From contig NC_083397.1 in NCBI RefSeq assembly GCF_030864355.1, forward strand, positions 310,001 through 374,000: DNA of 64,000 bases, written 5' to 3'. Shown here one piece after another: positions 5,862 to 29,654 of the stretch (the stretch's first letter is position 1; each line of letters begins with the position of its first letter). Source of the stretch: Cutaneotrichosporon cavernicola (lineage: Eukaryota > Basidiomycota > Tremellomycetes > Trichosporonales > Trichosporonaceae). The position numbers and the translations under genes are program-made. The notes below the pieces were generated by a model. The model ran no database searches. It saw only the letters and a program-made list of their open reading frames with translations, and was not told the DNA's origin.

Positions 5862-7142
5862 TATGATTGGGGACCAGAAGTGGGTTGAGAAGGATGAGGA
5901 GAGAAGATAGATTACGGAAGGAAGGTTGGTGAGTCGAGTGACGAGAGAAGAAGAGTGAGTGAATGAAGGAAAGATGAAGGAAGGAAAGAAGCAAGATGAC
6001 AAGTTGTATGGCAATCATGGTCAACCCACCCCACCCCACCCCACCCCACATCGCTTGAGAAGGAGGGGGAAGGGGATCATCTTGTCAAGTTGGAGGGAGC
6101 TAATCTCTTTTCGGGGCACATTCACACGCTCATTCCTAACAGGATCCGCTCCGCGATGTGTGAATGCAAGCGGACAGCGGACAACGGACAGTAACCCCGA
6201 CGTGGGGCGTCGGCGTCTGTGAGAGTGGAGGGATTAGTGGGATGGGATGGGATGGGATAGGATGGGATGGATGGCTCAGAGGGGGGCAAAGTGGAACAGG
6301 CATATCGGATACCGCATGCATGTGGTACATGCCAGGTGCAAAGTCCCCGAGGCAACCGAGTAGACCGAGTAGATCATGTCGCCACCCCTTGGCCCTATCA
6401 GTCCATTTGTCACCACCGCCGCCTCTGTCACTCACAGCCACGGCACGTCTGTACGTGCACTCTTCACCACCCCTCACTCACGGACTCACAAGCGGCTTGA
6501 AACACGGGTCGGATCCATCCTTTGGAATCGTCGTGGCCTCGAGTCGTCACTAGATCCGTGCCATGTTTGGCTTCTCATCACGACAAAATGTGCTACGGCG
6601 CACACACCTTGAGGTCCATGCTCACACTGGTACTGGGGTTCGCCACAATAGCCTCAACCTCTTTGCCACCCTCGCACGAGCCTCCTCGGGGAGCTAGAAT
6701 AAGTGGTGACTGCACAGCATCCGGTATACACGAGTATTCCCCAACTCACCTTCCCCTTCTCATCTCACTCATCCCACCCTACCCATGCAGGCAATATGCC
6801 GTCTGTGAAAGTCAAGTGTTGTGTCGTGTTCTTGTTAATGTCCAAACAAAGGGGGGAAAAGGGCAGTTGGGGAGTAGCCACCTCTCAAGTCTCACTGTTC
6901 AACGTTGGCTTAGCCGCCCATCTGAATGGTATATCTACCCTGGCCATGGCTTTCATCCAGTTTCATTCCCCCTCAACTACAAACACTCTCACAACTTGAC
7001 AACTTAACCACTCTACTTCACCCCACTCAATCACTACTCTCTATTGCCATTCCCTTGGCCCTATCGAGAAAGAGCACAGGTCCTTGCCTCTCATCGCCTC
7101 GCAACATCTCGCACCCTTACCTGACCGATCTACCTCGCAACC
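5862..7142. other. gene-free stretch with simple repeats
   Basis: No supported gene. It contains a CCCCA-type repeat at about 6027-6050 and a GGGAT-type repeat at about 6238-6272, both short and imperfect. It probably includes the promoter of the GluRS-like gene and of the first cysteine-rich gene. Confidence 0.6.
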
Positions 7143-7403
7143 ATGCCTAGCGCCACTCTCTCCACGGTCCCCGAGTTCGGATGGGCTCACACGTCCATGT
7201 TCACCAATGCAATCCGCGGCGGTCTCCACATGCCGTCGCCCATCTCCCTCCCTCAGCGCCGCCGCCACTTCCAGGCCCACCTATCGGATTGGCCCGAGCT
7301 TGTGCCGGCCCCTGGCGTCCAGATTCCCGGCTACCCTCCGCACCCTTCGGGTTGCAAGTGCTGCTACATCTGCGCCAACTGCGTCGTAACTTGTGGCCAT
7401 TAG
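7143..7403 (+). CDS. Small cysteine-rich protein 1
   Basis: Single-exon frame of 86 aa. The first ~68 residues lack cysteine and are Pro/His/Arg-rich. The last 18 carry six Cys as C-x-C-C-x2-C-x2-C-x3-C ending GH. The CANCVVTCGH end resembles half of the CxxCxxxCxC unit repeated in neighbours at 12040, 14192 and 15332. It is the left-most member of the plus-strand Cys-rich array. No signal peptide is evident. A metal-binding (metallothionein-like) role is inferred only from cysteine spacing and context. The ATG at 7143 is the first in frame and lies in CAACCATGCC. Confidence 0.5.
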   Translation: MPSATLSTVPEFGWAHTSMFTNAIRGGLHMPSPISLPQRRRHFQAHLSDWPELVPAPGVQIPGYPPHPSGCKCCYICANCVVTCGH

Positions 7404-9085
7404 TCGATCTTGAGGTCGACCGCCCGATGGGAGAGCTCTCTTCGCCACTGATGTCCCGTGTACAATAGCCAATGTTTGAGTTGTACCATATCAATCTCTG
7501 TCTATCCTAAGCAAATGCTATTCGTTCGTCCGTCTTTCCCGGCCCGATGCAAAGCACCTTTACACTGATTCTCTGGCAGTTTGCATTCCTTTGTGTATCG
7601 GTTCAGTGGAGAGATGTAGGAATGTGGATCGGATTGGTGGGATATCGGTGGCAGAGGATGCAAGGAACGTCAACGAGTGTGGGCTAAACCACTCGGCCGC
7701 CGGTGTTAACCAAAGACCTCACATGCTAACAATCGCTGCCCCCTTTGCCATAGCCTCTCTCTTTGCATTCATGGTTTCACCATTCTTCCATCTACTCCTT
7801 CATTCCCTCTATTAGCCTTGACATATCTCGGGAATAACATAGTTGATCACGACGACAAACGCTGTTCGCGTTGGGAGGAGTGCTTCCGTTGCTTCGAGCT
7901 GCGGTAATTTAATTAGCTGAATGCAGCTAGATACGACTCGGGCGACTGAAACCATCCAGAAATAACCGACAAAGCCGAATCTGAGAGAGACGGTGATAAC
8001 GAGGGTAACGACGACGAGGACAAAGGGTAAGGTCAAGGCAATCAAGGTGAAGGGGAGTTGGACAAGTGACCGGTTTGGGTGCGCAAGGCCCAAGCCACGG
8101 TGCCTAGTTTCAAACCCAAACCACGGTGTACCGCCACCAAACCATGCAACCATCAACGCACATTCGGACTTGACACTTCTGCATAAGGGGGGCCCACAGA
8201 AGCACGAAGCGGTTGTTCGTCGTGCGCTACACAATCGTCCACCCCTCGCTCACTTGCTTGCTGCACGGACGGTGATGCAAAGAGGGACGTGAAGGGGTCT
8301 GGAGCGTTCAGCGTCCGTGCGTGTGCCAAGATTAAGTCAGTGGCGAGTCCCGCAGTTTTCTTCTGACTACCCTGCAGCGAACCAAGTGGATAGGCATAAC
8401 ACAACCTATCAACTATTGTCACTTTTGAAAATCCAGCTTTTTCGGCGCCTGTGCGTTCCTTGGCGTCTCCCTGTGGCGGAACCTAGATATCGGTGACAAT
8501 ACCAATACCGGAACCCATGATACGTCCATTACACTTCTACGAGCTCGTACGAGTACCTGACAGGCGCAACTTTGGGAGCACACCTGACCTATCGACCAAC
8601 TGGTCACGACATGACATAACCAAAAAGATCCATGCACGCCATCGTCCCTCAGGAGCGGAACGCGTGGAATGAGCCGAATGGGCCGTGAGCGGAAACTCTG
8701 CGGGCCCGAGCGAGGGTGTGAGCGGGGTAGCGAAACGGCCAGCCTGTTTTCCTGTTCCATTCAAACCCCGGTTATTTACCTTGCCAATGCGACCCGGCCA
8801 ACAGAGTCCACGTCAGTGAGAATCCGTGCTACGGAAGTGTTACGAAGCAGGAGGGTAACGTAAGCGTGATTAGAGAATGCTACATGATCGCCCGCCTTCG
8901 CTCTCAGCCACTTTCCTTGTGATGACCAACGCTTGGCAGTTAAGCCCGCCCACTCGTAGCTGGGCTTGGCAAGTATCCCTTCTGATCATCGATTGGAACG
9001 GAATGTACAGTACATGGCGCCACTGACGCATCATTCCCCGCCATTTCGCCGCCAACATGCCTTGACGCGCCTCTGGGATTCGGCA
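7404..9085. other. gene-free stretch
   Basis: Nothing supported. A 140-aa hydrophobic minus-strand frame at 7812-8234 was considered and rejected. The right end holds the promoter of the 9194 gene. Confidence 0.5.
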
Positions 9086-9091
9086 TATAAA
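9086..9091 (+). promoter_or_regulatory. TATA box of the 9194 gene
   Basis: TATAAA about 103 bp before the ATG at 9194. Comparable AT boxes precede other array members: TATAAG at 10052, TATTTAAA at 14113 and 18862, TTTAAA at 19813, and CATAAAAG at about 21134. Confidence 0.55.
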
Positions 9092-9193
9092 CCCCGACGC
9101 TGCCCTCGAAACCACATCTACTCTCCGCTCTCAATAATCGTCACCACCACACCTCCCGCTACTACCCAACAGCAACACACCAACAACGCCGAC

Positions 9194-9286
9194 ATGGATA
9201 ACTGCGAGTCGTGCTATACCTGCGGCGGGTGCGCGAACCACAGTAACAAGTGCGGCTGGCCGACTTGCGTGTGCGTCAAAAACTAG
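9194..9286 (+). CDS. 30-aa metallothionein-like peptide
   Basis: ATG 9194 to TAG 9284-9286 encodes 30 residues with seven Cys spaced C-x2-C-x2-C-x2-C-x6-C-x4-C-x-C, ending VKN. The size and Cys content (23%) are like ascomycete copper metallothioneins such as the 26-residue Neurospora protein, but the spacing differs. A TATAAA lies 103 bp upstream and a CAACGCCGACATGG context surrounds the start. No intron is needed. Metal chelation in the cytosol is the most economical reading, but it is inferred from composition and from the array of similar genes around it. Confidence 0.65.
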   Translation: MDNCESCYTCGGCANHSNKCGWPTCVCVKN

Positions 9287-10133
9287 AGATAGAAGTGACG
9301 AAGTAGTCTGATCAGAAGTGAAGATGTACGGTAGCAAGGTAGTGACAGTGAGTGGTGGCACTCGCGGTGGTGGATATCGGAGCAGTCTAGTCTAGTTTCG
9401 TGGTGGCGAGGTGGCAGTCAGGTGCAAGTGTGGGACGGCGCGCTTGTGGAACCTAATGCCACCTCTGCTTCCCACCGAGCGGTTGTGAATGACATCTGAC
9501 TAGGACTTCAAACTCGTGCATATTCTATGAACCATCCTGCTGTTAACCACCTAACCTGGCGACTGGGGTATTGCCACTGCCAGAGTGATGACGCATGTTT
9601 AGGATACAGCCAGGCTTCTGTGGAAGCTCCTGCACTTGTGGGAGGGGATGTGAATCACTGCTCCACTTCACAGACCCAGAGAGGAAACTAGCCACCCCAT
9701 CCAGAAATTCACGATATCGGAATCTACTCCCCGCAGCATTCCCCCCTTCACGCAGCTCACATTGTCCTGGAGCACTACTAGAGGTACACGTTATGAGAAA
9801 CGCGTTGGAGTTGATACTGTAGCCCGTGTGCCAATATCTGCTGGTTCCATTGTCTGTAGGGTGGCTTCGACGACGGGAGGCCGACGGAGAACGAGAAGCC
9901 GAACGAAGGTGACGTCCCGAGGCTTCTTGCGGATGCAGTGGAGCGCCTTCGATGGGACGTAGCGTCATGAGAAGGGAGCGCGGACGATTCGGAAGTGCAT
10001 TGTGACGGCGATGGTACCGTTGATGACGAGAGCGTATCCGGTGGCGGCGGGTATAAGTTTCAAGCAACTCACGCTCTACCATCCCGCCACACCCCAGCCC
10101 AACCACAACCACACCAAATCTGTGACCCAAACC
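9287..10133. other. gene-free stretch
   Basis: No supported gene. A 328-aa minus-strand frame (9543-10529) overlaps here and continues across the next gene, and was rejected. TATAAG at 10052 is a likely core promoter for the 10134 gene. Confidence 0.5.
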
Positions 10134-10415
10134 ATGCCGTGCTGTGACGAATGCTGCGACGGAACGGGCCGCTGCCCCTGTCTCTGCCTGTGCTACGAGA
10201 GTGACGGGCGAACGGAGGAGGACCACCAGCGCTTCTCGGAGGAGCAGCAGCGCATGGACCGGTACGTCGACAGCGACGACGAGGGTAGCGAGGATGGCGA
10301 GGATGAAGCTGTTTCGGGCGATGAAAAGGGTGGCGGGGAAAGTGAGGCTGAGAACAAGGACAAGGACATGAGCGGCGAGGAAGGGAAGGAAGATGAGAAG
10401 GAGGAGGAGACGTAG
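10134..10415 (+). CDS. Cysteine-head, acidic-tail small protein
   Basis: ATG 10134 to TAG 10413-10415, 93 aa. Residues 3-21 hold eight Cys in the pattern CC-x2-CC-x5-C-x-C-x-C-x-C. From about residue 22 the protein is hydrophilic and, after residue 45, almost entirely Glu/Asp/Lys/Ser/Gly with long acidic runs. The strong contrast between a metal-thiolate-like head and a disordered acidic tail is shared with the broken gene at 11058, so this is a recurrent architecture and not chance. TATAAG lies 77 bp upstream. No known family is recognised. Both parts could bind metal (thiolate for soft metals, carboxylates for Ca or Zn), but that is speculative. Confidence 0.6.
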   Translation: MPCCDECCDGTGRCPCLCLCYESDGRTEEDHQRFSEEQQRMDRYVDSDDEGSEDGEDEAVSGDEKGGGESEAENKDKDMSGEEGKEDEKEEET

Positions 10416-11057
10416 TGTCATAAGGATGCAACCATGAGTCAAGTGCCATGCATTGTCAGATACAGTTTCGGTTGCTTCTCGAATCTCGAGCTTATATTCA
10501 CTCTTCCTGTTTCGCTCCGCTAAAAACACGCCCTAATATTGCTTCTTCTTATTAGGACGAATTCCACTGTGTGTCCAATGTTCCAACTGTACGTTGAGTG
10601 GTGAATGCGGCAAGGCTCACCTCCATCTGTTCGGCCAGCTGGTAGCGACAGCGAGGGCGACGCCATCGGGTGCGATTGCTAGGGTGGCCACGATAGCGAC
10701 AGGGACAACGAGGCCGCGTAGCGAACAGCAGGGTAGCCCAAGGGTACAATAGAGAAAGGAATGCTTCTGCGCAGACGCTCTGAACGTGTTTCGGCTTCGT
10801 ACTGGGGGGTCTGGGGGTCTGGGCGCTGAGGAATGAGGAACAGGTGGTGGGTTAGAGTCGGGAACGCACGATTATCTTTGCTTGCCAGGGACATCCTGTT
10901 CCAAAGTCGTTGGGAATATGTGGGTCTACTAGAGAACAAAAGTAGGCGCCCGTGAGTACTGCGACACCGAGTGACTTGACAAAGACTGCAACGCCATCTG
11001 GACCCACCATGTCTCCTCTTAAGGGCATGGCCGAACCTGTTCGCCACAACCAAGATA
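10416..11057. other. gene-free stretch
   Basis: About 640 bp between two related acidic-tail loci, with no supported gene. Confidence 0.5.
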
Positions 11058-11358
11058 ATGTCCTTTGACCCCTTCACCCTGGCTACCGGCTACAGCACTC
11101 CACCCCCCACACCGCCGCACGGGCATTCTTGCACGTGTTGCACCACTGAAGGCTGTGTTTCACCACTGAGGGCCGTGCTGGCGGTTGCCGCCTGTGCTAC
11201 TGCAACAACGGTGATATGCACTGCTCTGACTGGGACAGCGAGGACGATAACCAATCTGAAGGCGAGGAGGGCAAGGAGGGAGAGAAGGAGGAAGAGGGTG
11301 ACGATGAGGAGTCAGAGTTCCAGAGCCACGATGAGGAGGGGAAGCTACACAACCAGTA
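11058..11358 (+). pseudogene. Frameshifted paralogue of the Cys-head/acidic-tail gene
   Basis: Reading starts at ATG 11058 (MSFDPFTLATGY..., then HSCTCC). After a near-perfect tandem duplication of 20 bp (11141-11160 and 11161-11180, 16 of 20 identical) the homologous frame shifts. In the shifted frame the sequence continues with GGCRLCYCNNGDMHC and then a 45-residue Glu/Lys/Asp-rich tail to TAG 11356-11358, matching the layout of the 10134 protein. With only one copy of the 20-mer the two halves are in one frame. As written, the first frame runs on to about 11375 through unrelated basic sequence. A splice removing the extra copy would need a 16-bp intron, which is implausible. Most likely a recently disabled gene, though sequencing error in the repeat cannot be excluded. 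Confidence 0.65.
11141..11180 (+). repeat. 20-bp imperfect tandem duplication
   Basis: Two adjacent 20-mers beginning CACCACTGA, differing at four positions. The extra 20 bp shifts the frame of the Cys-rich gene that contains it. Confidence 0.9.
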
Positions 11359-12039
11359 GTATGCAGGTATGCTAGCCAAAGTCACCAGACGAGTGGTAGA
11401 GATTTGCTAACGTCACAATGTCCTGCCACTAGGTATTACGAAACGGCATGGCAAGATGTCCAACACTCTTCCAACCCTTCACCGCCTCACTGTGAAGATT
11501 GTGCCGGCCACTGAGAACAGTGACCCCTTTCCCGAGCCGCAATCACTGTTTTGAATCCCCCCCCCTCCTCCTCGTGTCCACAATCCACAGCTTTGTTTGG
11601 TGCAATTACGAGTGCGACCGTCCGATCTTGATGGCTTCGCTTAAAGGTAGTGTTACCTTGATCCTAGCAAAATGGCGTCCCGGACCAGGAGTTCCGTCTT
11701 TACCCCATGCGGAAGCGGGCTCCATACTGTATTTGCATGTGATAGATGGAGGCAATGGGAACGAGCGCGCGAGGCACGCTGCAGGCTGAATGCAGACTGG
11801 AAGTATGAGGCCAAAGCAGATTGGGAACAGGGACAGAGCTCGAGCCTGCTTTCTCCTTCCTGTCATTCGTTTGCCATCCACCATATAATATCATCCATCC
11901 ATTCCCTCTCCTCTCCTGTTGCATTCTCTGACAACTACAGTAACATATCAAACCGCCTCGTAGAGCCAGTGGAGCCTTATCGCCCTTTCCCACATTCCTT
12001 CCTTCCTCAGGCACCTCGGCTTTCCATCGGCAACTGACA
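11359..12039. other. gene-free stretch
   Basis: No supported gene. A TATAATA at about 11884 lies roughly 155 bp before the 12040 gene. Confidence 0.5.
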
Positions 12040-12435
12040 ATGCCTTGTCCGTCCTGGAGAAAACACGAGGAAGTGTGCAATCCCAAGTGCGTTTTCTGTG
12101 AGAACTGCGTCCAAAGTTGCCTCTGCTCGCACTGTGGCCGCTGCTCGCGGCGCTGTACGTGCCACGACGACCCTCAGAACACAGGGGAGCAGTGCTTCCA
12201 ACAGGAGTGCGCCATCGGGCGCGAGAGCCTCAACTTGCAGCGCTGCAGAGCCTGCGACACCTTCGAGTGCACCCCTTGCGGGTGCGGAGCCAGCTGTAGC
12301 CACACCTGCCTTTGCGTGCACTGCACCACGTGCATCCACTCTTGTGCTTGTCACCTTGAGTCGCTGGACAGCAAGTTATGCAGCTCGCCCATGTGCGTGG
12401 CTGGTCGCGCGAATATCGCTTCATGCGGCCCGTGA
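12040..12435 (+). CDS. Large multi-repeat cysteine-rich (metallothionein-like) protein
   Basis: ATG 12040 to an in-frame TGA at 12433-12435, 131 aa with about 28 Cys (21%). It is built of tandem modules. Module 1 is about residues 13-42 and module 2 about residues 69-104. Each contains the unit C-x2-C-x3-C-x-C repeated with an 11-residue period and closing in C-x-C-H. The linkers are also alike (Cys pair, then GR, then a further Cys). The coding pattern continues after the TGA (next entry), so this may be a truncated form of a longer three-module protein. The same unit occurs once in the 14192 and 15332 genes. Basidiomycete metallothioneins of the Cryptococcus CMT type are also long and modular, but the relation is inferred from composition only. 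Confidence 0.65.
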   Translation: MPCPSWRKHEEVCNPKCVFCENCVQSCLCSHCGRCSRRCTCHDDPQNTGEQCFQQECAIGRESLNLQRCRACDTFECTPCGCGASCSHTCLCVHCTTCIHSCACHLESLDSKLCSSPMCVAGRANIASCGP

Positions 12436-12582
12436 AGCCAGCACCGCGGCGCGTGTCGCAAGCGCCGCTGCCAACAGTGCAGTTTCAAGTGCACCTGCCT
12501 CAAGTGCAATCGGTGCTCGTATTCGGCCTGTAACTGTTTCCGCACCAAGGGTGGCTCACCAGGTTCATCCGAGGATGTCTAG
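12436..12582 (+). other. Third Cys module of the 12040 gene beyond an in-frame TGA
   Basis: In the same frame as the 12040 gene, 48 further codons run to TAG 12580-12582. They encode a third module (CRKRRCQQCSFKCTCLKC, then NRCSYSACNC) with the same Cys spacing and a Ser/Gly-rich tail. Preservation of Cys codons here implies it was coding recently. Options are a new nonsense mutation, stop readthrough, or splicing. A GTGAAG...TGCAG intron at 12432-12482 would keep frame but would remove two Cys of the module and lacks a good branch site. Confidence 0.6.
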
Positions 12583-13832
12583 GCAGTCCCGTTCAAGGAT
12601 GTCTGGCGGTAGAACCCTCCTCGTCGGCCATAACCAGGGCGCAAACCCTCCGACATTGCTATGCATCGAGTAAAAGCGCGAGCGATGGTGGCAGAGTAGA
12701 TAACGCAGCCCACACAAGGGAGCTGGAACTGGCTGCGACATTCGAGAGCCTCCTGCACATCCTCCCCCTTCCTTTCACTTCTGCTCGCACTGGGTCATAT
12801 TGTTACCCGCGACGAGCAGCACTACTCAAGACGATTGATGGCGCACTACTCGCATCCTCCTCATCCTCACCTCTCACGTTCATAGCCATCCATCGTGGTC
12901 TCCCACTTATCACTGCACGCCTCTGTCACCTCATCTCCAACCTCCAACAGGAGCGTCGTTACGCGGGCCCAGGCACTGCCACGAGCCCAAGTAATTTAAC
13001 CACAAGGACGACACGGGCACGAACAGTGACACCGACAGCGACACCGAATCGAACAGCGAGGAGAGGCGCGCGTCTGTCTAGACATAGGCCGGACATAGGC
13101 TGTAGGGGTACTCTCTCGCGCGAACGCAGGAGTGAAGCACTTTTCCTTCAAGAGGAAGAGAGTGCTCCCCCCTCCCGGCCCAGTCCTCATTGTCCTCAAG
13201 ATTTCACTTCAAGATTATCTGGCCTCTTCAGCCTCCAGCCTTTCAGCCATCCCAACTTGTTCCCCCAGGGTAATCTGTCATTCCCACACTATAGGCTTGG
13301 AGGAGTTCTACGGTGCGGGTGACGACTGAATGCCTGGTACCCTACCGATGCACCCAGTGAGACATCTCCTCCTAGCGGTATGATGGAGGAATGCGACTCC
13401 GCTTACGCGAGTGTTAACTAGGTAAAATCGCAGACTCAGTGGGAGGGAACATAGAGTCCGGCGTGGTCGCCGGGGTATGCGAGGCTGTGACGCTGCACGC
13501 AGGAAATCTGGTGGGAAATGGGGACAGGAAAAGGTTCGAAAACTGGATCTGTGTATCGCGCGTGAAGTGGTGGGGACCGAAGGATGACATTCGCCTCTAC
13601 AGTATCCCGTTCTGGATCACTGAACCGGGATATCGGGCTCCAAATAACCAGTAAGAAATAGGCTTTTTTTTACCCCAGTTCAGCGTGGTGTATTGCCGTT
13701 CGAAGATAGAATGAAGCCCCACTGCGGCCACCAGACTGTCGCCACGATTTCGCATACATTCTGTCGCCACGTCTCTGTTTCCCCCACTCACACTCCGTCT
13801 TCATCTGGCCACATCTCACGCCCCAACCGATA
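12583..13832. other. Mostly gene-free stretch with one relic
   Basis: No intact gene. It contains the possible acidic relic listed separately at 12970-13079. Confidence 0.5.
12970..13079 (+). pseudogene. Possible relic of a Cys/acidic-tail gene
   Basis: One frame reads RHCHEPK, a TAA stop, then FNHKDDTGTNSDTDSDTESN with SEERRASV before TAG 13077-13079. The acidic Ser/Asp/Glu tail after a CxC-H-like remnant recalls the 10134 and 11058 proteins, but cysteines are nearly gone. It may be chance; noted because it sits inside the array on the same strand. Confidence 0.25.
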
Positions 13833-13948
13833 ATGTACTGTGAACGGTGCGATGACGACGGCAGCGTCTGTGAGACCTGCGACTGTGGGAGTGTGATTGG
13901 AAGGGTTTCTGTCCCCACTGTGAAGGGTGAATGAACGAGTGTGACTGC
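13833..13948 (+). pseudogene. Decayed copy of the CxxCxxxCxC gene family
   Basis: ATG 13833 begins MYCERC...CETCDCG. After GGG AG near 13890 one base is missing relative to the intact 14192 gene. The shifted frame then reads CDWKGFCPHCEG, TGA at 13928-13930 where the intact copy has a Cys codon, and MNECDC. Position by position this follows the intact CKCGRCEYRCFCPHCNGC pattern. One deletion plus one Cys-to-stop change make it a pseudogene. Confidence 0.65.
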
Positions 13949-14112
13949 GCGACCACTTTGTCGACTGTGAGTAGTGTGGCGTGCGACCATCTAATCCCAC
14001 GCACTCAGTAGGACATGCATTTTACTCGGTCTTCCCAGCTTCGGAGCGCCGCATGCCGGGCGACACGTCAACCACGGCCGTCGTGGCTTACCTCTGCCGG
14101 ACTTGTCCAGGA

Positions 14113-14120
14113 TATTTAAA
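14113..14120 (+). promoter_or_regulatory. TATA-like box of the 14192 gene
   Basis: TATTTAAA 72 bp before the ATG at 14192. The identical octamer occurs at 18862-18869, 48 bp before the 18917 gene. Confidence 0.55.
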
Positions 14121-14191
14121 CTACGGTTTCATCTCTTCCTCGCCCATCACAACAACTACTTCGCAACCAGCTCCACCGCATCACCTCAAAC

Positions 14192-14374
14192 ATGGGCTGC
14201 TACTGGTGCAACAGCGACCTCAAGAAGGACAAACCTTGCGTTCATTGCAAGTGCGGCCGGTGCGAATACCGCTGCTTCTGCCCGCACTGCAACGGGTGCT
14301 TCTACAAGTGCAAGTGCCACGAGCACGAGGTCGGAAGCAAGAAGGTGCGCCGTAAGCGCAGAAACTCGATCTAG
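14192..14374 (+). CDS. 60-aa cysteine-rich protein, intact CxxCxxxCxC type
   Basis: Single exon, 60 aa, stop TAG 14372-14374. Residues 3-43 contain twelve Cys: an N-terminal C-x2-C, then C-x2-C-x-C and two 11-residue units C-x2-C-x3-C-x-C (CGRCEYRCFCPHCNGCFYKC then KCH). The C-terminal 17 residues are strongly basic (KKVRRKRR), unlike the acidic tails at 10134 and 11058, and could bind nucleic acid or act as a nuclear signal. The x2/x3 alternation is compatible with clustered Zn/Cu thiolate sites. A TATTTAAA lies 72 bp upstream. This is the best reference for judging the broken neighbours at 13833 and 14629. Function not established. Confidence 0.65.
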   Translation: MGCYWCNSDLKKDKPCVHCKCGRCEYRCFCPHCNGCFYKCKCHEHEVGSKKVRRKRRNSI

Positions 14375-14628
14375 AATGAGAAGGGATCGTAGTAGCCGTA
14401 GCGATGCATGAACGGCCCTGGGCAATGTTGTCCCCCACCTATCGCAGCTCTGGTCACCTTGATGTGCGAGTCAGATTACCGCCTGTGACTGTTGAAGAAG
14501 CAGACGTTGCCCGAGAAAAAGCTTACCTAGGACAATATTTGTGGAAGGCACGGGCGATAAAGTCCACTGAGAGTCTGCCACACACTCCCTTCCCTCCCAT
14601 TCTCACCTCCCGTTCCCTCACAACGACC

Positions 14629-14730
14629 ATGCCCTTCGGCTGTAAAGCATGCTATCGCGACCGCAGCTGGTGTGAATAGTATATTCTCTGCGATGACAGT
14701 GACTACCGCTGCTTCTGTGAGGCGTGCTGA
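14629..14730 (+). pseudogene. Nonsense-disrupted CxxCxxxCxC family copy
   Basis: ATG 14629 gives MPFGCKACYRDRSWCE, then TAG at 14677-14679. The same frame continues YILCDDSDYRCFCEAC to TGA 14728-14730. The YRCFCEAC segment corresponds to YRCFCPHC of the intact 14192 gene, while the second CxxCxxxCxC unit is absent. Probably a truncated, decaying duplicate. Confidence 0.6.
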
Positions 14731-15331
14731 GTCTATAGTTCATTTCCGCTTGAATCACGGCTAACGCGTAGGATACAGTCGCATCGCTCCATGGAACAGC
14801 TGTATCCCACGTAGGACAATCGGAGCCGAGCCGGAAGGATCAAGCTGATCTCCGCGATTGTGGAAAGCAACGTTGTGTGTCAATCTCCACGCGTCACCTA
14901 GCAAACCCGGCTCATCCATGTCCCCGCGGTCCATCCCACCCTCAAACTCCCACGACCACTGTTCATCTCCTTGAATATTTTAGACAGTCACTGGGTAGAA
15001 GAGCTTGGACTACGCATGATTTTCCTATCTCAGTGAGTAGGTGCAGTTCTCGGCCCCTGCGATGGGTTTTTGTTACCGAGCACGGGGCCGGAGACTCGTG
15101 AGAGCCAGTTGAGATCGGTCGTCTATTCCGATAGCAGACTGGGGAGCACAGCAATGTGCTGAGAAAACACGCACATTTCCCCCTCGACAGTGGTGTGATG
15201 TGTGACGCGACATGTCAACAGGTCGCTTAAGATGCCGTGGCCTCGTGCAACGAGCGCTCGCCCAAACTCAATAATACCGATCCCACCCCTTCCCCCTTCC
15301 TGATCTGCCAAGACCTCGCATTTTCCGCCCC

Positions 15332-15469
15332 ATGCTCCCCGCCATGACCTGCGAATGGTGCAACCACCCGTGGTACGCATGCAAGATGTGTGAGAAATGC
15401 CGCCGTTGCGACCATCTCTGTATCTGCCCGATCTGCCGGGGTTGCCTTACCATCTGCCTTTGCACTTAG
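15332..15469 (+). CDS. 45-aa cysteine-rich protein, CxxCxxxCxC type
   Basis: ATG 15332 (alternative in-frame ATG at 15344) to TAG 15467-15469. Twelve Cys in 45 residues: C-x2-C-x6-C-x2-C-x2-C followed by two units of C-x2-C-x3-C-x-C with the 11-residue period (CRRCDHLCICPI and CRGCLTICLC). No basic tail. It aligns over its whole Cys region with the 14192 gene. It lies about 480 bp left of the transposon end. Coding status is inferred from perfect retention of cysteine spacing. Metal binding is likely but untested. Confidence 0.65.
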   Translation: MLPAMTCEWCNHPWYACKMCEKCRRCDHLCICPICRGCLTICLCT

Positions 15470-15948
15470 TAAGGGAACTGACTGTGAGTGGTACGTCATG
15501 TAAGCTAACCTTATGGATCGGTCGAATTCCCCCACGTGCTGGAAGTGGAATTGAAGAGGTAGATTATGCATGTGTTGCTGTCCGAGACCGTGCACCCCAG
15601 GCTGAGGCTCTGGTCGAAAATATTGATATCAGCACTTGGAACCCGATTCTTGCCCACATCCAAACCTCTCTCAGTCTTTTGAATATTCACGTGGCGTATC
15701 TTGATTCCTTGCCCACTCATCCCCCGCCAACATACGCGTAAACATAGGGCATATCTCCTTGATCCATCGCGATCAGAGATTTATCGAGCGAGTTTCCATC
15801 TCGTCTCTAATCTCTACATCTCTACAAATAATCTCAGCCCAGCTCGTCCGGCATCCGTTCCCACCTTACTCAAAGAATGGCCCACGCCTATCCATGGCAT
15901 GTGGTACACTTCTCCTATAGTCCTCGTCCCCTCCTCCTTGCCTATATA
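15470..15948. other. gene-free stretch before the transposon
   Basis: No supported gene between the 15332 gene and the left end of the Tc1/mariner element. Confidence 0.5.
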
Positions 15949-15979
15949 CAGTACACTCCTACAACTAACTACTGCTGGG
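15949..15979 (+). repeat. Left terminal inverted repeat
   Basis: Starts CAGTACACTCCTACAAC next to TA at 15947-15948; pairs with 17659-17689. Confidence 0.65.
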
Positions 15980-16133
15980 TGTCCGAAATTTCAATGTGGC
16001 ACCTCAGTCTTGACCACAATGTGATCTTGATTCTTCAATAACTCAGTCAATATAATGGCTATGCATCCCATCTTTTAACAAGCTACTTGTGTGCATGTTG
16101 GCTATGTGTATGGAAAGGAATGGGGGGATGGGG

Positions 16134-17177
16134 CTATTTGGAAGACGACTTGCCTTTGGCCTTGATCACCTCCTTCATTCTGAGACTCATGTGGCAGATG
16201 TCACTGTCTATACTCTCTTGAGGATATTCAGCAAACAACTTAATAGCAGCCTCCAAGAATGCTTCATTGGTGCTTGGACGTGGCTCTAGCATGCTCAGCT
16301 TGTGCTTCATCCACCCCCAAATATGCTCAATGGGGTTAAGGTCTGGTGAAGAGGGGGGGTGGTCCATGAACTTCATCCCCTTCTTCACAGCCTCAGAGCG
16401 GTGTTTCCTATGCACTGGAGCGCCATCTTCAACAATGTAGACGTCACCATAGCCCCTCCATCGACTCTGGAAGCGCTTGAACAGTGGTAGGAGGTGTGGG
16501 AGGGTGATCTGATGGTAGTAAATGTCACCAGTAACACCCCCCCTCTTTCCATCACTTTTACTGGTGTCAAAGGCAACCAGAAGCGACCTCCCTCCATGCC
16601 AGACAGCCCCCCAGACCATGATAGATGGAAGCCCTGATCGAAAGGCAGGCTTGCAGTACTTGAGGTTGTGCTCTTGGCCCTTGGGTCTGGTGACATTGAT
16701 GTGTCCTTGGTGGTCTATGTTGATTGAGGCCTCATCACAGAAGATGACCCTTGTCCAGTCAAAGTCCTCATGAACAGTGCAGTAATTGAGGCATTCGGCG
16801 ATGGCAGAGGGTGATAGGAAAGGCTTGCGATGTGCCCTGTAGCGCTTGAGACTGAACTTGAGGCGCAGAGAGCGAAAGAGGTTGATGCCCATCTTGTATC
16901 CTTGAGTTGAAAGAAGAGAGAGCATCTCCCTCTCTTTTGGCCAAGGGTGGGCACTCATGAAGTCCTTGATATGCTGTAGATCATGCTTGTTGAACTTCGG
17001 AAAACGTCCTGGTGACCTGGGTGGGCTGGCAGACAGATGGGATGCTTCCCTCCTGAGATGTTGGCAGATGTTGGAGATGGTGCAGTTGAACTCAGCAGCT
17101 ACCACAGAGGGTGGTGCTACACGACAGGCGGCAATGATATCGGCATGCTTCTTGCGGGGGGTTCGAATGGGCGACAT
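16134..17177 (-). CDS. Tc1/mariner transposase (DDE)
   Basis: Intronless 347-aa frame. The N-terminal ~110 residues form the helix-turn-helix DNA-binding region with basic motifs. The catalytic triad is visible: D148 in VIFCDEASI, D241 in VEDGAPVHR and E274 in SPDLNPIEHIWGWMK, with 32 residues between the second D and the E (DD32E by count, near the DD34E of Tc1). No stop or frameshift interrupts it, so it may be active or recently active. It catalyses cut-and-paste transposition into TA. Codon use is less GC-rich than neighbours, consistent with recent arrival. Confidence 0.92.
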   Translation of the reverse strand: MSPIRTPRKKHADIIAACRVAPPSVVAAEFNCTISNICQHLRREASHLSASPPRSPGRFPKFNKHDLQHIKDFMSAHPWPKEREMLSLLSTQGYKMGINLFRSLRLKFSLKRYRAHRKPFLSPSAIAECLNYCTVHEDFDWTRVIFCDEASINIDHQGHINVTRPKGQEHNLKYCKPAFRSGLPSIMVWGAVWHGGRSLLVAFDTSKSDGKRGGVTGDIYYHQITLPHLLPLFKRFQSRWRGYGDVYIVEDGAPVHRKHRSEAVKKGMKFMDHPPSSPDLNPIEHIWGWMKHKLSMLEPRPSTNEAFLEAAIKLFAEYPQESIDSDICHMSLRMKEVIKAKGKSSSK

Positions 17178-17658
17178 CTTGAGGTCGTGTGCAAGATTTG
17201 AAGCAGATCCATGCAGTACTTATGGAGAAAACATAAAAAAGGGAGTCAGGACCAGCCCAAGGTACCACTTGAGATTATGGCCCCTACAACTGACACTACA
17301 GCGCGTCCCATGCATCAATTTTCATTGTTCTTTCTGCACAGACCTCTCGTCCGATGTCTTGCAGTCTTATATACCAAATCTCAGAGCTATTGCATATTTT
17401 TAGAGTGCAGAAAGGCCGTCTCAAGAGTGGCAGGTTCAATCCTCACTTGGAGGAGGACAGCCACAAATGCCCCAGAAATGCACAGTAATGGAATCATGAT
17501 GCATGCAATCTAGGCATGGAATACGAAGCACTGTATGGGTAAGAACTTCTGTGCAAGATTATGAAGCTCTAGATAAAGAATTGCATGCATGAGAGAGATA
17601 TCTCTACTGAAGATGGGTCACTTGTCAGAGGCAAAACTGACGGAAAGTGGAGGTTTGT

Positions 17659-17689
17659 GGCGGCAGTATTCTTTTGAAGGACCTTACTG
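17659..17689 (-). repeat. Right terminal inverted repeat
   Basis: Reads (complement) CAGTAAGGTCCTTCAAAAG next to TA at 17690-17691; partner of 15949-15979. Confidence 0.65.
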
Positions 17690-18861
17690 TAAGTAGAATA
17701 CTCGTATATAGATTTGTCCCCATCGACACACTATCATATGTTAGTCACCACAGTCGTTCACTCCAGATCACACCTCAACGCTTCATTTCTTAGTCACTGC
17801 CTTCGTCGTCACTTTGTCCAACTCTAACAGAATCACAGTGCAACGACTTGGAGTGAGACTGTGAGATGAGCTGGTAGGAGATGGCGGAGGCTGTGTCCGA
17901 GATCCGCCCCGACGACAGTGCTGGCAACGCCTAGTAAGGTAGCCGGTGCACTCACCCCGATATGCCCACATGTCAGGCACTGCGTGCGCAAGGTAATAGC
18001 TGGGATACCTTCTGCTCACGCCGCCCGACGGAAGGAAGTAGACGTCAGTTCGGTTCGGCTGCCGGGTATCGATGTGTGATTCTGCCGCTCGTGCCAGATT
18101 TGGTCTGGAGCTGAATCGGCCATAGCTACCTCCGTAATAGCTGATCACCTTCCGGGGAAAAGGGTTTTGGTGGCGTCGTGAGAGCATGTAACAATAGTGA
18201 TCGCAGGACTTATGAGGGATCTGGGATCCGGCGTGAACTTGTGGGCCACGCTGACGACTATTCTTTAGGTTATGGGACTATTGCCTCGCAGAGTGAAGCC
18301 GCTGCATTGCCATGTGGGCGCTGTTGGAGTTCCGAGCACTGTACTCAGAGCCGTTCGGAAATCTCGGTTGATGAATGTTATCAGAAGCATACAACAGCAG
18401 ATCTCGATGCTCGATGCATTACGCTTCCTGTTCCTGTTTGTTCGTACTTAACGGCACGTCTCGCACTGTGGCGCGCTTCTTCTGTAAGAGGCTGCATTGT
18501 TCAAGTAGGGTCGGCTCCGGGATTGTGCCAACCACAGCGGGAACGACGGAGTGTGACAGGGCGTAATTCCCTTTGCGTGGAGCAGTGCCATGTGACATTG
18601 TAAGTTCGGTTCGGATGTCATCCCCGTCGCAGCCACTCCGTGCGTGCTTCTCTTCTCGGAAGATGGAAGGAAAAATGTGCGCCTGTCGCCGAGCCATTTC
18701 TGGGTGAACGGGCAAACCAAGAGGGCCTGCCTCCCACCAACGTCGGGCAACCTCGCATGCCCACCCCACGGACCCTCGGAGCTACCAATCGGCCGCCGAC
18801 CTGACGACCCGTGCGTCGGTGGAACTCTGTGGTTCGATCCTGGACCACTGCCGACTGTCGA
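17690..18861. other. gene-free stretch right of the transposon
   Basis: No supported gene. Short frames on both strands lack motifs. A TATTTAAA at 18862-18869 marks the promoter of the next Cys-rich gene. Confidence 0.5.
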
Positions 18862-18916
18862 TATTTAAACCCGCACCGGAAAACACTGATCCCTCACTCC
18901 ACCAAGATAACATAAC

Positions 18917-19078
18917 ATGATCGCCACCGTGCGCCATGGTTTTGTTTTCACTGACCACAGACCACCATCGTCAACTACCAGGACTGCGGCTCGTGCTCGT
19001 GCGGCTCGGGATGCGGCTGCAAGTGAGTCTATGGCAAGTCGATAAGTTGACACCAGGCCTGGAGAGTGCAAGTGCTAG
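18917..19078 (+). CDS. 31-aa metallothionein-like peptide, three exons
   Basis: Exons 18917-18928, 18961-19022 and 19057-19078 with introns of 32 and 34 bp. Both introns end with a near-consensus branch (CTGACCACAG, TTGACACCAG). The product has 31 aa and seven Cys: C-x2-C-x-C-x3-C-x-C-K-P-x2-C-x-C at the C-terminus. It closely resembles small fungal copper metallothioneins in size and density. If intron 2 is kept, the TGA inside its GTGAGT donor ends the protein right after CGCK, giving a shorter but still Cys-rich peptide. The same organisation recurs at 19862 and 21195. TATTTAAA lies 48 bp upstream. Confidence 0.65.
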
Positions 19079-19283
19079 GCGTCTTCGGGAAGAGAGAAGG
19101 AAGAAGGAGGAGAAGGATAAACAAGATGAAGAGATGAATGAATGAGCTGCTTCTTAATCCGACCTCTCACGATCTCACTTTGTTAGCACCTAATAATGCC
19201 TTGGAGCGTTCTACTGCATCCTCCACTTCCCAACGTCATCAACTGACACCAACACTTTATCTACCAACTGCCAGACATACGCA

Positions 19284-19400
19284 ATGACCTCCAACGTAAG
19301 TGAAATTTGATTGTTGAGGGACTAACGCCTGGCCACCCTATTCAACAGCAACTGCGGCCACGCAAGCTGTAATTGCGGCTAGAACTGCAACTGGGAGTGA
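19284..19400 (+). pseudogene. Disrupted three-exon metallothionein copy
   Basis: ATG ACC TCC AAC then GTAAGT at 19296 mirrors exon 1 and intron 1 of the 18917 gene. Downstream NCGHASCNCG, TAG 19380-19382, NCNWE and a GTGAGT-type donor mirror exon 2. The acceptor phase (CAACAG then CAACTGC) does not join in the Cys frame and a TAG interrupts it. A splice straight to the AG of that TAG would bypass both faults but would drop most cysteines. Probably a pseudogene. Confidence 0.5.
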
Positions 19401-19861
19401 GTGAACTACGATTCATCCTGACACTAGGCCCCCTGCAACTTGCAAGTCCTACTCGGACGATTGGCACTGTACCCACGATGTCCAGCCCGTGAGACAGGTG
19501 GATGAGAATGGGGATGCAGGATTACTGTGGAGACTGATATGGGTACCGCAAGCTGCTTCGACCGTCCATGTCACTCTGGGTCAAGGAATCCTCTCCGCCC
19601 GAACGCCGAGTCCGAGTCCAGTATTCCAAGACTCAACATTTCCGAGGCGGACGTATGCTGAGGGACGCTGATCAGAATTGAACCAGCGACGTCCACATCA
19701 GCCGAACAGGAGACGGACACCACGTCATCGAAGAAGAGGTGATATATTGAGTCAAGAGGGATCGACGTCCCGCTCCACAGCAGGGAGTGGCGATTTTTCA
19801 CCCCGCAGCCGATTTAAACGACGCAATTCTGTCGAGGCAAAGTATGCCACGCAGAACTAGA

Positions 19862-20079
19862 ATGGATGAGGTAAGTTCACGCCGTAACGCAGCTTACAAC
19901 AGAATACGCCCTCCCAACCTCTTTCCGACCTAAAGCCCAATTCCGTGAGCGTGGGTGACCCCGGCCGATCGCAGTGCCAGTGCACCGGCTGCACATGCGA
20001 GTGAGTCCGATAGTAAGCTGTCACTCAACGTAGCCCTTGCCGTTGTGGTTCGCGTACAATCGGGCCATCCATGACCTGA
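19862..20079 (+). CDS. 50-aa metallothionein-like protein, three exons
   Basis: Exons 19862-19870, 19903-20000 and 20034-20079 with introns of 32 and 33 bp (acceptors CTTACAACAG and CTCAACGTAG). The protein has a 27-residue Ser/Pro-rich lead and a cluster C-x-C-x2-C-x-C-D-P-C-x-C (six Cys), then a 10-residue tail GSRTIGPSMT. The relatives at 18917 and 21195 stop directly after the last Cys pair, so the tail may reflect loss of an ancestral stop. Intron-2 retention again gives an immediate TGA. TTTAAA lies about 44 bp upstream. Function inferred from Cys pattern and family. Confidence 0.55.
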
Positions 20080-21194
20080 ACCAGTCCCCTCTTGTTGTAC
20101 AGTACCAGAAGGATGGATCCGAAGCGCTGTTTTGGAAATTGCGACACTGTGGAGCCTGAGATCTCTGTAAGCCCTCAAGATACGCTATCTGTTTCGACCG
20201 GGACAGAATGATGACTCGAGATTCTCTACCATAGCCCCAAGCTGGACACGACAGCACAAGGGTGGCGAGGATTCAACTCACTGAAACTCAACCGCGTCCC
20301 GAAACTACTTCTTCCAACTACGACGCTCACAGATTACACGGTGTATGCAGCCAACACCTGGTCCATCTGAGTACCATCTGCCGACCGTGTTGATCTTAGT
20401 TCCTACTTTCGTGGGTGACAGTGTCGCCGGATACGTTGGGCTTTGTTCTTCTAACACAGGCGTTTTGGGAGTAATCCTAGAGAAGCAGCTGAGATACACC
20501 ACATGAAGTTGGAGTAACGTCGTATGCCACTATCTGGATGCCAGATATCAGCTCCACCGGAGATGTCTCTACGAAGAGCTCCCGGCAATCCTAATTAGCG
20601 AGCTAGTACTCAACGAGCCTCAACGTCATATTCCCTACTCCTCTTGATTTCCAACCATCGTAACCTCAACGTCATGGCATGAGATGCTGAACGGCCAGCT
20701 AGGCCGTGACTTTCCCACTCACTTACCACATGGACGAGACTGCGAGACCGCCCACGCCCACTCCAGTGCCCCGCTCTGTCACAAATCTCCGCATACCGGG
20801 TAAACCTCATTCCTAAGCCCCTAAGCCGCCACTTGTCCGCCACGCATGTGCTTCGGATGCCTGAGAACGACAACACAACACACGCGCCACCATCCCCACT
20901 CCCCAGGACCGCTGACTAAACTCATGGTATCGTGGTTCTTTAGTCTTTTAGCTAATCGTCTGTGAGATGAAACCATACACCAGCGGTCGCTCTACCCCGG
21001 TTCTTGTGGTTTCTCACAAAGTCTGACTCGAGTGGCAGTGCTGTGCTTGTGAAGTCGGTTGTCATCATACAGAATACAGATCTCTCCTGTTCTTTCGCAC
21101 GTCGGACTGTCAGTGGCGGCACTCAATCTCTCACCATAAAAGAGCCTCTACTGCCCACTCTTCCCGCCAACCACTCTTAACATCCCCTTCCATA
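20080..21194. other. gene-free stretch
   Basis: No supported gene. CATAAAAG near 21134 is a likely core promoter for the 21195 gene. Confidence 0.5.
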
Positions 21195-21349
21195 ATGATC
21201 TACCAGACTACCACGGACATGCCGATCGAGGTAAAGTCACTTGTTTGCGGTGCTGATATCAGGAGCCGCCCGCTGGCTGTGACTGCGAGGACTGCGACTG
21301 CAAGTGAGTTCCTCCCTGGTGTCGCTAATGCAGGCCGTGCGGCTGCTAG
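21195..21349 (+). CDS. 30-aa metallothionein-like peptide, three exons
   Basis: Exons 21195-21230, 21263-21303 and 21334-21349 with introns of 32 bp (ending GCTGATATCAG) and 30 bp (ending GCTAATGCAG). The product has 30 aa: a 17-residue lead without Cys, then CDCEDCDCKPCGC with six Cys. It shares the CxCxxCxC-(K/D)-P-CxC ending and the exon layout with 18917 and 19862, so the three are one family despite unrelated leads. The acidic residues between Cys suggest a hard or soft divalent-metal site. Unspliced intron 2 would end the protein at CDCK. Right-most member of the array. Confidence 0.65.
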
Positions 21350-21627
21350 ATGCTCCTCTTTCGTGTGCAGCAAGACCCACGATCGTGCCTGTGTCGAATC
21401 TGAGGGTCTGTAGTGTCTCGACATGGCTTACAGGCCAGCTATGCAGTGTCAAGTTGAGGTGCCAAAGTGTGCTTTCATTTCCCTCACTGACGGTCTGGCA
21501 ATGCCTCCTCCCCAACCCTTCGCGACGTTAAACGGATGACTTCCTTGCTGCATCAGAGCAGCATAGTGGCGGAACTCGGCCCCGTGGATATGTAGGAGCA
21601 CCGGAATTGAGATACCATCGCATTCAC

Positions 21628-21710
21628 ATCGCTATAGCTTAGTGGAAGAGCGCGAGGCTCATACTGGTATGATCACCTCGAGGTCCCAAGATCGAGACTT
21701 GGTGGCGATA
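21628..21710 (+). tRNA. tRNA-Met (CAT), with 11-nt intron
   Basis: The full cloverleaf can be drawn. Acceptor ATCGCTA/TGGCGAT (seven pairs with one G-T), D stem GCTT/GAGC, anticodon stem CGAGG/CCTCG, loop CT-CAT-A plus A, and T stem CCAAG/CTTGG with loop ATCGAGA. Eleven extra bases (21664-21674) follow position 37, the canonical intron site. Discriminator A at 21710. CAT is the Met anticodon. The T-loop begins with A instead of T, which is slightly unusual. A T-rich tract (CTTTTTCTAG) downstream can serve as the Pol III terminator. Confidence 0.88.
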
Positions 21711-21835
21711 ACTGGCCCATGGCCTTTGCTTTTGTCGGCTCTTTTTCTAGACTCCATTTCTCCACTTCCCACTGATACCGTACATTACATTACTGTACAT
21801 TGTACATAACTGTCTTACACTCTCTATGTACACCC

Positions 21836-23139
21836 TTACGCACCGTCATGCTCGATCCGCGCAATACGCCCCTCCAAACCCTCAATAGTGAGGTCGGCTC
21901 GTTCTGCCAACTCCAAGAGCGCTTCGCCCGCCTCATCGTGTGGCCGGGAGGCGAAGTCCAGCTGGTCAACGATATGCTTCAACTCCTTCACCAGCCGCTG
22001 GCCGACCCGCACATCGCAAGTGTACCACAAGTCCTCGAGGCCCATGACGTTACCCACAAACTGGCGAACTTCAGGCACTGCGTATCGTCGGAGGATATCC
22101 TTTCGCCAAGACATGAGGGAAGACGGGCGCTCAGTTTGGGGATTGAAGGATTGACGGAGGAGGTATACACTCTCGACGGTGATTGGGGGGCAGTCGTACA
22201 CGTCGTGGAGGCGGTGATACTTCCTTGAGCGAATCAGGCCAGCTGCAAGACGGCGAGCGCCTTTCTCATTGAAGATGGTCTCGAGGGTTCGTTCAGCTGC
22301 TGTGATTTTATTCGAAGATGCGTAGGAAGAGTCCAGGAGGGAGCGGGGGAGAGCGAAGGCTTCAAGCCATGGAGCTGTACATGCGCTTCCGTTAGCCTGC
22401 CCAAATGGCCAAACGGAACTTACTATTCCCAATTAGACACGCTCAGTCCATTCTCGGTTAGGATGAGGTTTTTTTCCAAGTTGTGGTGGCGTAAGAACGT
22501 CTGGCCGACATGTTTCATCTCCTCGCACTCGCGGACAAGTTCCCGCGCCTCCAATGCCAAACAAAAGCGGTTCAAGCGATCTCTAACAACCTGCGTATTT
22601 CCCAGATCATCGATCATGTCGTCGAGGCGAGCGATATGCGCCTCGGACGTGGAGGGGAATACGCCATGTGTTCTGCTGGGAGTGATGAGCTGGCTGACAA
22701 TGACCTTGTCGTTGAGGGTTGTAAGGCTCCCCACGCCAGTGTAAGGGCGTTTACTGAGGGCTATGTAGAAGTCTGCGAGGGCCAGTAGCATGTTCTGGGG
22801 TGTGGTCGAGATGGCTAGGGGCCGATCGACGAAGAGAACCGAGACGTAGTCAAACTCGGACACCCAGAATTGCGGGATGGGGAAGAGGTCTCGCGCAACC
22901 CGCATACTAGAGATTTCAGACTCTCGCACCTCCTCCATGAGAGGGAGGGATACGCGGGCCACCCACTTTGCTCCGTCATCAAATTCGATATTTAGGTCGA
23001 GGCTCGTTTCTGAGAGTTCTTCGGCGGTGTATCCGTGCTCGTATTTGATGGTGGGGATGATTACGCGTGCGGGACTGCGTAGAGCACCCGCCGTCTGTCC
23101 GATGGGTGAGGAGAGGATGCTTTCGACGAGGCCGAACAA
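21836..23139 (-). CDS. APH-fold protein, probable pseudokinase
   Basis: Exons 23139-22424 and 22385-21836 join (branch GCTAACGGAAG) to 421 aa. The body resembles fungal aminoglycoside-phosphotransferase-family proteins: FDDGAKWVARV (N-lobe strand), a middle ADFYIALSKRP helix, and the region equivalent to HGDLHxxNIL-x-DWE. Here that region reads RHHNLEKNLIL...NWEYACTAPWLEAF, so the catalytic Asp of HGD and the Mg-binding Asp of DWE are both replaced. This suggests loss of kinase activity while the fold is kept. A further 5' exon from ATG 23416, joined by a longer intron, is possible but not required. Fungal members of this family are mostly of unknown function. Confidence 0.6.
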
Positions 23140-29557: not shown

Positions 29558-29654
29558 TCCCCCGCGTCTCTATCCACGCTCAAAGCGTCAAATTGGACCA
29601 TCTCACACGGACCATGCCCAGAACATGTCCGCGCAACAGACAAACATTTCCATC

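Follow-up and report, generated by a model that had tools for sequence, protein, structure and literature searches.

The 64,000-nt window analysed here (contig NC_083397.1 of Cutaneotrichosporon cavernicola, positions 310,001 to 374,000; GC content 57.9%) contains, at positions 7143-21349, an island of very small cysteine-rich loci, which is probably a birth-and-death cluster of metallothionein-type genes. Metallothioneins hold Cu(I), Zn and Cd via cysteine thiolates, and the most likely function of the island, judged from sequence, would be to buffer metals, of whatever preference, through genes that were duplicated locally and then diverged. Nine open gene models of 30-131 amino acids (aa) and 7-26.7% Cys were recognised and are named by their first position (7143, 9194, 10134, 12040, 14192, 15332, the spliced 18917, 19844 and 21195), together with four broken copies (11058, 13833, 14629 and 19284) and one remnant (12992-13081), all of them on the plus strand. 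The number, size, cysteine content and strand given in a preliminary description of this DNA were thus borne out, as was its division into three structural types, except that 7143 and 9194 fitted none of the three well and were kept as singletons.

This interpretation was adopted because the loci share one strand, encode short products that are Cys-rich or bear a Cys cluster and, in eight of nine models, are composed like coding sequence, and because the type-1 modules are homologous, the predicted exon plan of type 3 is common to its members and broken relatives stand beside intact ones. Such an arrangement would have arisen from several rounds of duplication in place, after which the sequences other than the Cys residues diverged fast. 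Recent duplication was considered and rejected, as no DNA repeat between the genes was longer than 36 nt.

Cysteine runs in the island and in control sequences

Four runs of at least 10 closely spaced Cys were found on the plus strand of 6001-22000 (starting at 12076, 12268, 14237 and 15380) and none on the minus strand, where the sole strong run (13002-13055, 8 Cys) was an acidic SDTD repeat read in antisense. The preliminary description had proposed to measure the Cys patterns against shuffled sequence of the same composition; 100 dinucleotide shuffles of 6001-22000 gave no run with at least 7 Cys. The 7-Cys core of type 1, C3C1C2C2C3C1C, occurred four times in the window, always inside the island, and was absent both from 60 shuffles and from a 200-kb control taken from contigs C1 and C2 of this genome (1% of its length). 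In this control, 13 runs of at least 5 Cys and 6 of at least 6 Cys were present, and the sole run of at least 7 Cys was a poly-Cys repeat. By run length, 7143 (6 Cys) and exon 2 of 18917 (5 Cys) are therefore unremarkable, since the control holds such runs.

Cysteine density can also mislead. At 44433-44633, a plus-strand run of 28 Cys is an artefact that arises opposite an H/Q/E-rich repeat of a 409-aa open reading frame (ORF) at 43640-44869 on the minus strand, and it serves as a warning for scans of this kind. In prokaryote genomes scanned with the 8-Cys DNA pattern of type 1, at least 118 loci matched; 117 of these were examined by script, one metagenome-assembled genome labelled Bordetella parapertussis being left out, and they yielded 145 rows; in 53 of them the module was interrupted by a stop, and the other 92 were, by eye, mostly simple repeats. 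Cys spacing alone is thus not a specific probe in prokaryotes. Among the matches, an uncultured-bacterium contig (RUG11040, 6301-6582) carried a 264-aa frame with 52 Cys, clearly metallothionein-like, which matched the 8-Cys pattern twice.

It could be argued that the loci are ORFs that arose by chance or from low-complexity sequence and mean nothing biologically, given that 136 ORFs of at least 30 aa overlap 6000-22500, that simple repeats yield poly-Cys runs such as 44433-44633 as well as many of the bacterial matches, and that the control held the 13 shorter runs just mentioned. We regard this as extremely unlikely, as the shuffles, the 200-kb control, the codon composition, the homologous modules and the intron structure all oppose it. 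For types 1 and 3 the chance reading is refuted in the main, and it may still apply to 7143, 19844 and the ORF at 9595-9819.

Codon composition and the question of decay

Coding composition was measured as GC3 excess, that is, the GC content of third codon positions minus the mean of that of first and second positions, with Cys codons removed. The excess was 0.18-0.42 in eight of the nine open models, whereas 64 other ATG ORFs (30-135 aa) of the region averaged 0.01 with a maximum of 0.19; the value of 7143 (0.18) was accordingly borderline, inside the top of this background. A TATA-like box was found at -31 to -108 from the ATG in 6/9 open models and in 0/4 broken loci; within -150 to -40, it was present at 5 of 13 loci compared with 6.7% of random places in the island, with a motif set that had been picked after the sequence was seen. 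Each gene would thus be transcribed separately, the TATA-like boxes of the six models lying no more than about 110 bp from the ATG.

The broken loci raise the question of whether the island is mostly a relic, in which old metallothionein copies decay without function and a few at most are active. Four broken copies and at least one remnant stand among about 14 loci, the broken ones show no TATA-like box, an in-frame TGA cuts a third module off 12040, 19844 is without a coding-like GC3 signal, and a transposon has inserted within the island. Decay on this scale is nevertheless improbable in our judgement: coding-like GC3 outside the Cys codons persists in eight of nine models (one borderline), the TATA-like box is kept in six, and all Cys are retained in three complete 8-Cys modules.

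Type-3 loci and their predicted splicing

The type-3 loci have a common predicted plan: a first exon of 12-36 nt, intron 1, an exon 2 with CxC pairs, intron 2 and an exon 3 with the last CxC. Locus 18917 (18917-19078, plus strand; exons 18917-18928, 18961-19022 and 19057-19078; TATA-like box at -55) would encode 31 aa with 7 Cys, and its spliced product, from which introns of 32 and 34 nt are removed, has the spacing C-x2-C-x-C-x3-C-x-C-x4-C-x-C. Locus 19844 (19844-20079, plus; exons 19844-19870, 19903-20000 and 20034-20079; TATA-like box at -31) would give 56 aa with 6 Cys, and locus 21195 (21195-21349, plus; exons 21195-21230, 21263-21303 and 21334-21349; TATA-like box at -59) 30 aa with 6 Cys; both carry the motif C1C2C1C2C1C. 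The third exon of 21195 ends exactly where the preliminary description had closed the island, so its author probably saw the three-exon model too. The broken locus 19284 (19284-19460, plus, end approximate) has an in-frame TAG at 19380 in its Cys stretch, an exon 1 out of frame and an exon 3 that reads CKS and not CxC.

Intron 1 measured 32 nt in the three open loci and 53 nt in 19284; intron 2 measured 30-34 nt, with a GTGAGT donor in phase 2, and the apparent stop after exon 2 is this donor itself. In the 200-kb control, 120 intron-like intervals measured 30-39 nt, whereas each 5-nt class between 40 and 64 nt contained 12-24, and the window held 18 such intervals of 32-35 nt against 3.4 in shuffles. 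As 30-39 nt is the commonest intron-like size class in the genome, type-3 introns of 30-34 nt are normal. A GTGAGT donor-acceptor pair, sought under a looser branch rule than that of the strict intron scan, was followed by CxC within nine codons in 1 of 43 cases in the 200 kb and in 3 of 14 in the window, the latter being the three open type-3 loci.

The spliced type-3 products, which have 0-1 aromatic residues, are well supported as metallothioneins by the closeness of 18917 to a published heptaCys motif and to the three-exon plan with small introns that goes with it, and they very probably bind metal. A weak hit of 21195 to Pfam Metallothio_11 (15.3 bits, E 0.023) fell below the cut-off of 27.

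Comparison with published genes places 18917 close to two groups. Excerpts of PMC12508003 give the Agaricomycete heptaCys motif as C-x4-C-x-C-x2,3-C-x-C-x4-C-x-C at the C-terminus, and describe two genes of A. crocodilinus with three and four exons and introns of about 50 bp. Locus 18917 resembles the AcMT2-type heptaCys protein of that source in having its last six Cys in register, three exons and small introns; it differs in a first gap of x2 and not x4, in predicted introns of 32-34 nt and in its position in an array. For TmMT of Tremella mesenterica, the sections of PMC4755600 that were consulted report the block CXCX3CSCPPGXCXCAXCP in a ten-exon gene with repeated Cys blocks. The last six Cys of 18917 fit six of the seven Cys of this block, with KPGE in place of PPGX, and several small exons are a further likeness; the island differs from the long Cu-thioneins of Tremellomycetes (CnMT1/2 and TmMT), in which one protein carries several 7-Cys blocks, in having one short block per separate gene and not a long modular protein. 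Among six published fungal family examples (Table 1 of PMC4755600, the part used here), the full 18917 pattern was found in none, the spacing of its last six Cys in S. cerevisiae Crs5, and C1C2C1C2C1C in two, C. glabrata MT2 and Y. lipolytica MT3. The likeness of 19844 and 21195 to fungal families 10 and 11 is limited to this terminal motif, the present genes being spliced by prediction and free of a CCC motif.

The ten-exon TmMT also suggests that the type-3 units might be exons of one long modular gene, as they all lie within 2.4 kb in one direction. This we consider very unlikely: each unit has its own ATG, each of the three open units has a TATA-like box and ends with its own stop in exon 3, and the gaps between units (about 205-1115 bp) far exceed the typical introns of 30-40 nt.

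Type-1 loci and their 8-Cys modules

A complete type-1 module consists of two half-units CxxCxxxCxC with two residues between them, and it occurs in three open loci. Locus 12040 (12040-12435, plus strand) encodes 131 aa with 28 Cys, arranged in modules 12082-12162 and 12268-12351 with a spacer; a third module (12436-12582, plus) continues in the same frame after the in-frame TGA at 12433-12435 and ends with a TAG at 12580. An intron that would remove this TGA was looked for and discarded, as no interval fits the donor and branch rule and the removal would cut into module 3. Locus 14192 (14192-14374, plus; TATA-like box at -79) encodes 60 aa with 12 Cys, and locus 15332 (15332-15469, plus) 45 aa with 12 Cys (26.7%), each with one complete 8-Cys module. 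In the broken 13833 (13833-13950, plus), a 33-aa ORF is left and the rest of the module lies in another frame, while the module of 14629 (14629-14730, plus) is split by an in-frame TAG at 14677; these two relatives carry FCPHC and YRCFCEAC pieces.

Alignment of the modules 12082-12162, 12268-12351, 14237-14317 and 15380-15463 revealed nine invariant Cys. Their residues other than Cys were alike beyond permutation (P 0.0008, 20,000 permutations), as were those of the half-units (P 0.003), and the modules are therefore taken to be homologous. Their sequence makes a metallothionein identity plausible for type 1, and its products probably bind metal.

An alternative confines metallothioneins to type 3 and takes type 1 as structural zinc-module or regulatory proteins, with 7143 and type 2 as unrelated proteins bearing a Cys patch. 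Type-1 proteins contain 2-7 His and 3-6 aromatic residues each, the sole hint for 14192 in a sequence search of the PDB was a zinc-finger HIT domain (E 1.3), and 7143 and 10134 reach just 7.0% and 8.6% Cys. On the other hand, type 1 attains 20-27% Cys in a repeated thiolate pattern and shares a single-strand cluster with type 3. Its half-unit was also present in two of the six family examples, C. glabrata MT1 (family 9) and Crs5 (family 13), though near chance (about 5% each in shuffled order) and as a single copy without the doubled 8-Cys module of type 1; the full module and the 5-Cys core were in none of the six, and CxxxCxCxxC was in three. On balance the zinc-module alternative appears unlikely to us.

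Type-2 loci and singletons

Type 2 is represented by 10134 (10134-10415, plus strand; TATA-like box at -82), a 93-aa model with a Cys-rich head CCDECCDGTGRCPCLCLC, a long acidic tail and a raised GC3 excess of 0.23. In its broken relative 11058 (11058-11359, plus), the acidic tail is out of frame with the Cys head; a 20-bp tandem repeat (11134-11177) stands between them, and the frame is lost near the repeat. The remnant at 12992-13081 (plus) is a type-2-like acidic tail. Opposite 10134, a 292-aa ORF (9543-10421, minus) was rejected as a real gene: it had no Pfam match and no raised GC3 (0.55), and its twin locus 11058 has no comparable antisense ORF.

The singleton 7143 (7143-7403, plus) encodes 86 aa with 6 Cys in a C-terminal cluster CKCCYICANCVVTCGH, and the singleton 9194 (9194-9286, plus; TATA-like box at -108) 30 aa with 7 Cys, where a candidate intron (9269/9271-9315) would alter the C-terminus. 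Aromatic residues numbered 3 in type 2, 2 in 9194 and 7 in 7143. The case for type 2 and 7143 as metallothioneins is weak; metal binding is conceivable for type 2, at somewhat less than even chances, and rather doubtful for 7143.

A 75-aa ORF at 9595-9819 (plus) with CGSSCTCGRGC may be a weak further remnant of the island. Ten other island ORFs (75-134 aa, this one included) and the 292-aa antisense ORF gave no Pfam match above cut-off; two of the eleven had matches below it, 9595-9819 to Metallothio_2 (E 0.0014, 20 bits, cut-off 23) and 17783-18187 to DUF7921.

Database searches and the size of the array

No protein in a collection of 5.8 billion shared three 5-residue words with 12040 or 14192. 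A control protein from the window, histidinol-phosphate aminotransferase (49504-50691, minus), was present there at 100%; among the 120 matches listed of 7,982, it had 87% identity to a Cutaneotrichosporon spelunceum protein, 65-69% to most from Vanrija, Kwoniella and Cryptococcus, and 60% to one shorter Kwoniella protein, which shows that this genome's protein and those of other Tremellomycetes are represented in the collection. The suggestion that gene callers miss such loci fits these two models, which are two of the nine and the ones that the search covered.

Sequence searches of the PDB with 12040, 18917 and 14192 pointed to no family. The genome itself (20,208,035 bases in 8 contigs, with the window on contig C5) was searched with 12040, 14192, 10134 and 18917, and each query found only itself, known neighbours of the same type not being returned either; since 14192 missed its neighbours 12040 and 15332, these searches cannot show that relatives are absent elsewhere. 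With 7143, the query itself and two weak places (E 0.02 and 0.05) were found. In the papers searched, none was found that joins metallothionein with Trichosporonales or Cutaneotrichosporon, and for metallothionein and Trichosporon none among the matches listed had both terms in title or abstract.

Table 1 of PMC12508003 lists one to three studied metallothionein genes per Agaricomycete species, and the consulted part of PMC13107397 describes for Yarrowia the neighbouring pairs MT1/MT2 and MT3/MT4 on two chromosomes and one putative gene on a third. The claim that an array of this size is unusual holds against these published examples, whose lists are of studied genes and not exhaustive counts.

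The CUP1 copies of S. cerevisiae are tandem duplicates. The island is like CUP1 arrays in the local amplification of metallothionein genes, and unlike them in that its genes are divergent and of differing architecture, with a longest direct repeat of 36 nt.

Proposed function and the points against it

The preliminary description had named metallothioneins as the family in question, and this identity has good sequence support for type 3, is plausible for type 1 and is weak for type 2 and 7143. According to excerpts of PMC12508003, metallothioneins range from 13 to 35 mol% Cys, and six of the nine models (9194, 12040, 14192, 15332, 18917 and 21195) lie inside this range at 20.0-26.7%.

Several results weigh against a cluster of metallothionein-type genes. 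The Cys content of the other three models is below 13% (7143, 7.0%; 10134, 8.6%; 19844, 10.7%), and the His and aromatic residues of types 1 and 2 are unusual for metallothioneins. None of the nine open models had a Pfam match above cut-off, and NCBIfam gave none for the six tested, which were those outside type 3. The strict donor and branch rule was satisfied by four of eight type-3 introns, the broken locus included, the other four having a donor or branch site off by one or two bases or a distant branch site. The spacer repeat of 12040 was not significant (P 0.14), and the GC3 excess of 19844 was 0.01, without coding-like signal, so that this gene is perhaps decaying. In the 600 bp before the 13 loci, ACE1-, Cuf1-, MRE- and Zap1-like motifs were not enriched; the six copper- and zinc-response consensus motifs used were all at or below background (per 600 bp, 0.31 ACE1-like sites against 0.38 at random and 0.38 Cuf1-like against 0.70), and no upstream k-mers were shared above the level of random windows.

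Copper control is thus unsupported, as ACE1- and Cuf1-like motifs are not enriched. The genome has one match to the copper-fist domain (PF00649; C3:2834683-2834796, 82 bits). As reported in excerpts of PMC13343922, both metallothionein genes of C. neoformans are induced by high Cu, with Cuf1 then on the CMT1 promoter, and the corresponding part of PMC4755600 describes TmMT as apparently constitutive.

Under the birth-and-death reading, the products would be peptides of the cytosol in which soft metals are held by thiolates. Through its CxC-type spacing, type 3 may bind Cu(I), as do metallothioneins of basidiomycetes and of the Yarrowia type; type 1, which has CxxC pairs as well as His and aromatic residues, may carry two-part clusters of Zn or Cd, or of Cu; and type 2 may form a small thiolate cluster coupled to its acidic tail. 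Small size and high Cys would also suit secreted Cys-rich proteins with disulphide bonds, such as effectors or antimicrobial peptides. This is very improbable, as a hydrophobic signal peptide was seen in none of the nine models (judged by eye, with no predictor used), and spacings of CxC and CxxC are typical of thiolate clusters rather than of disulphide folds.

A more elaborate proposal, which seems to us quite unlikely, is that of a dedicated metal-handling locus in which unlike neighbours share the work and type 3 makes two products by splicing. CxC mini-thioneins would then serve Cu(I), a new, doubled CxxCxxxCxC module Zn or Cd, and the acidic-tailed forms would act as carriers. As the donor of type-3 intron 2 holds an in-frame stop, spliced and unspliced messenger RNAs would yield peptides that keep and lack the last CxC, respectively, and the two peptides of each gene would differ in metal capacity. 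The two-product idea may reflect mere structure, because any phase-2 GTGAGT donor reads TGA.

If the island is expressed, no local set of fungal metallothionein-type genes known to us would match it in diversity. Intact, diverging and broken metallothionein-like genes stand here side by side as a natural series, in which it could be tested directly how Cys spacing and metal preference evolve, and the loci exemplify very small genes that may escape annotation.

Transposable element and neighbouring features

Contrary to the statement that no ordinary gene lies between the loci, a Tc1/mariner (IS630-like) element of 1.7 kb (15947-17691, minus strand) lies between 15469 and 18917, with types 1 and 2 on one side of it and type 3 on the other. 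Its transposase (16134-17177, 347 aa) has an intact frame, the element matches Pfam DDE_3 (E 6.7e-11), and its ends show imperfect terminal inverted repeats (21 of 30 bases alike) with TA at both edges. A second open copy on contig C2 is identical to it at 97.2% of 1,746 aligned DNA positions, and its protein at 95%; at least 10 further matches in the genome are remote (34-48%).

Just downstream of the island, a transfer RNA (tRNA) gene at 21628-21710 (plus) was detected with Rfam (49.7 bits) and was not called by ARAGORN, perhaps because of a tRNA intron. ARAGORN placed another tRNA at 29655-29733, with anticodon undetermined, and a minisatellite with periods of 15 and 30 bp lies at 29430-29558.

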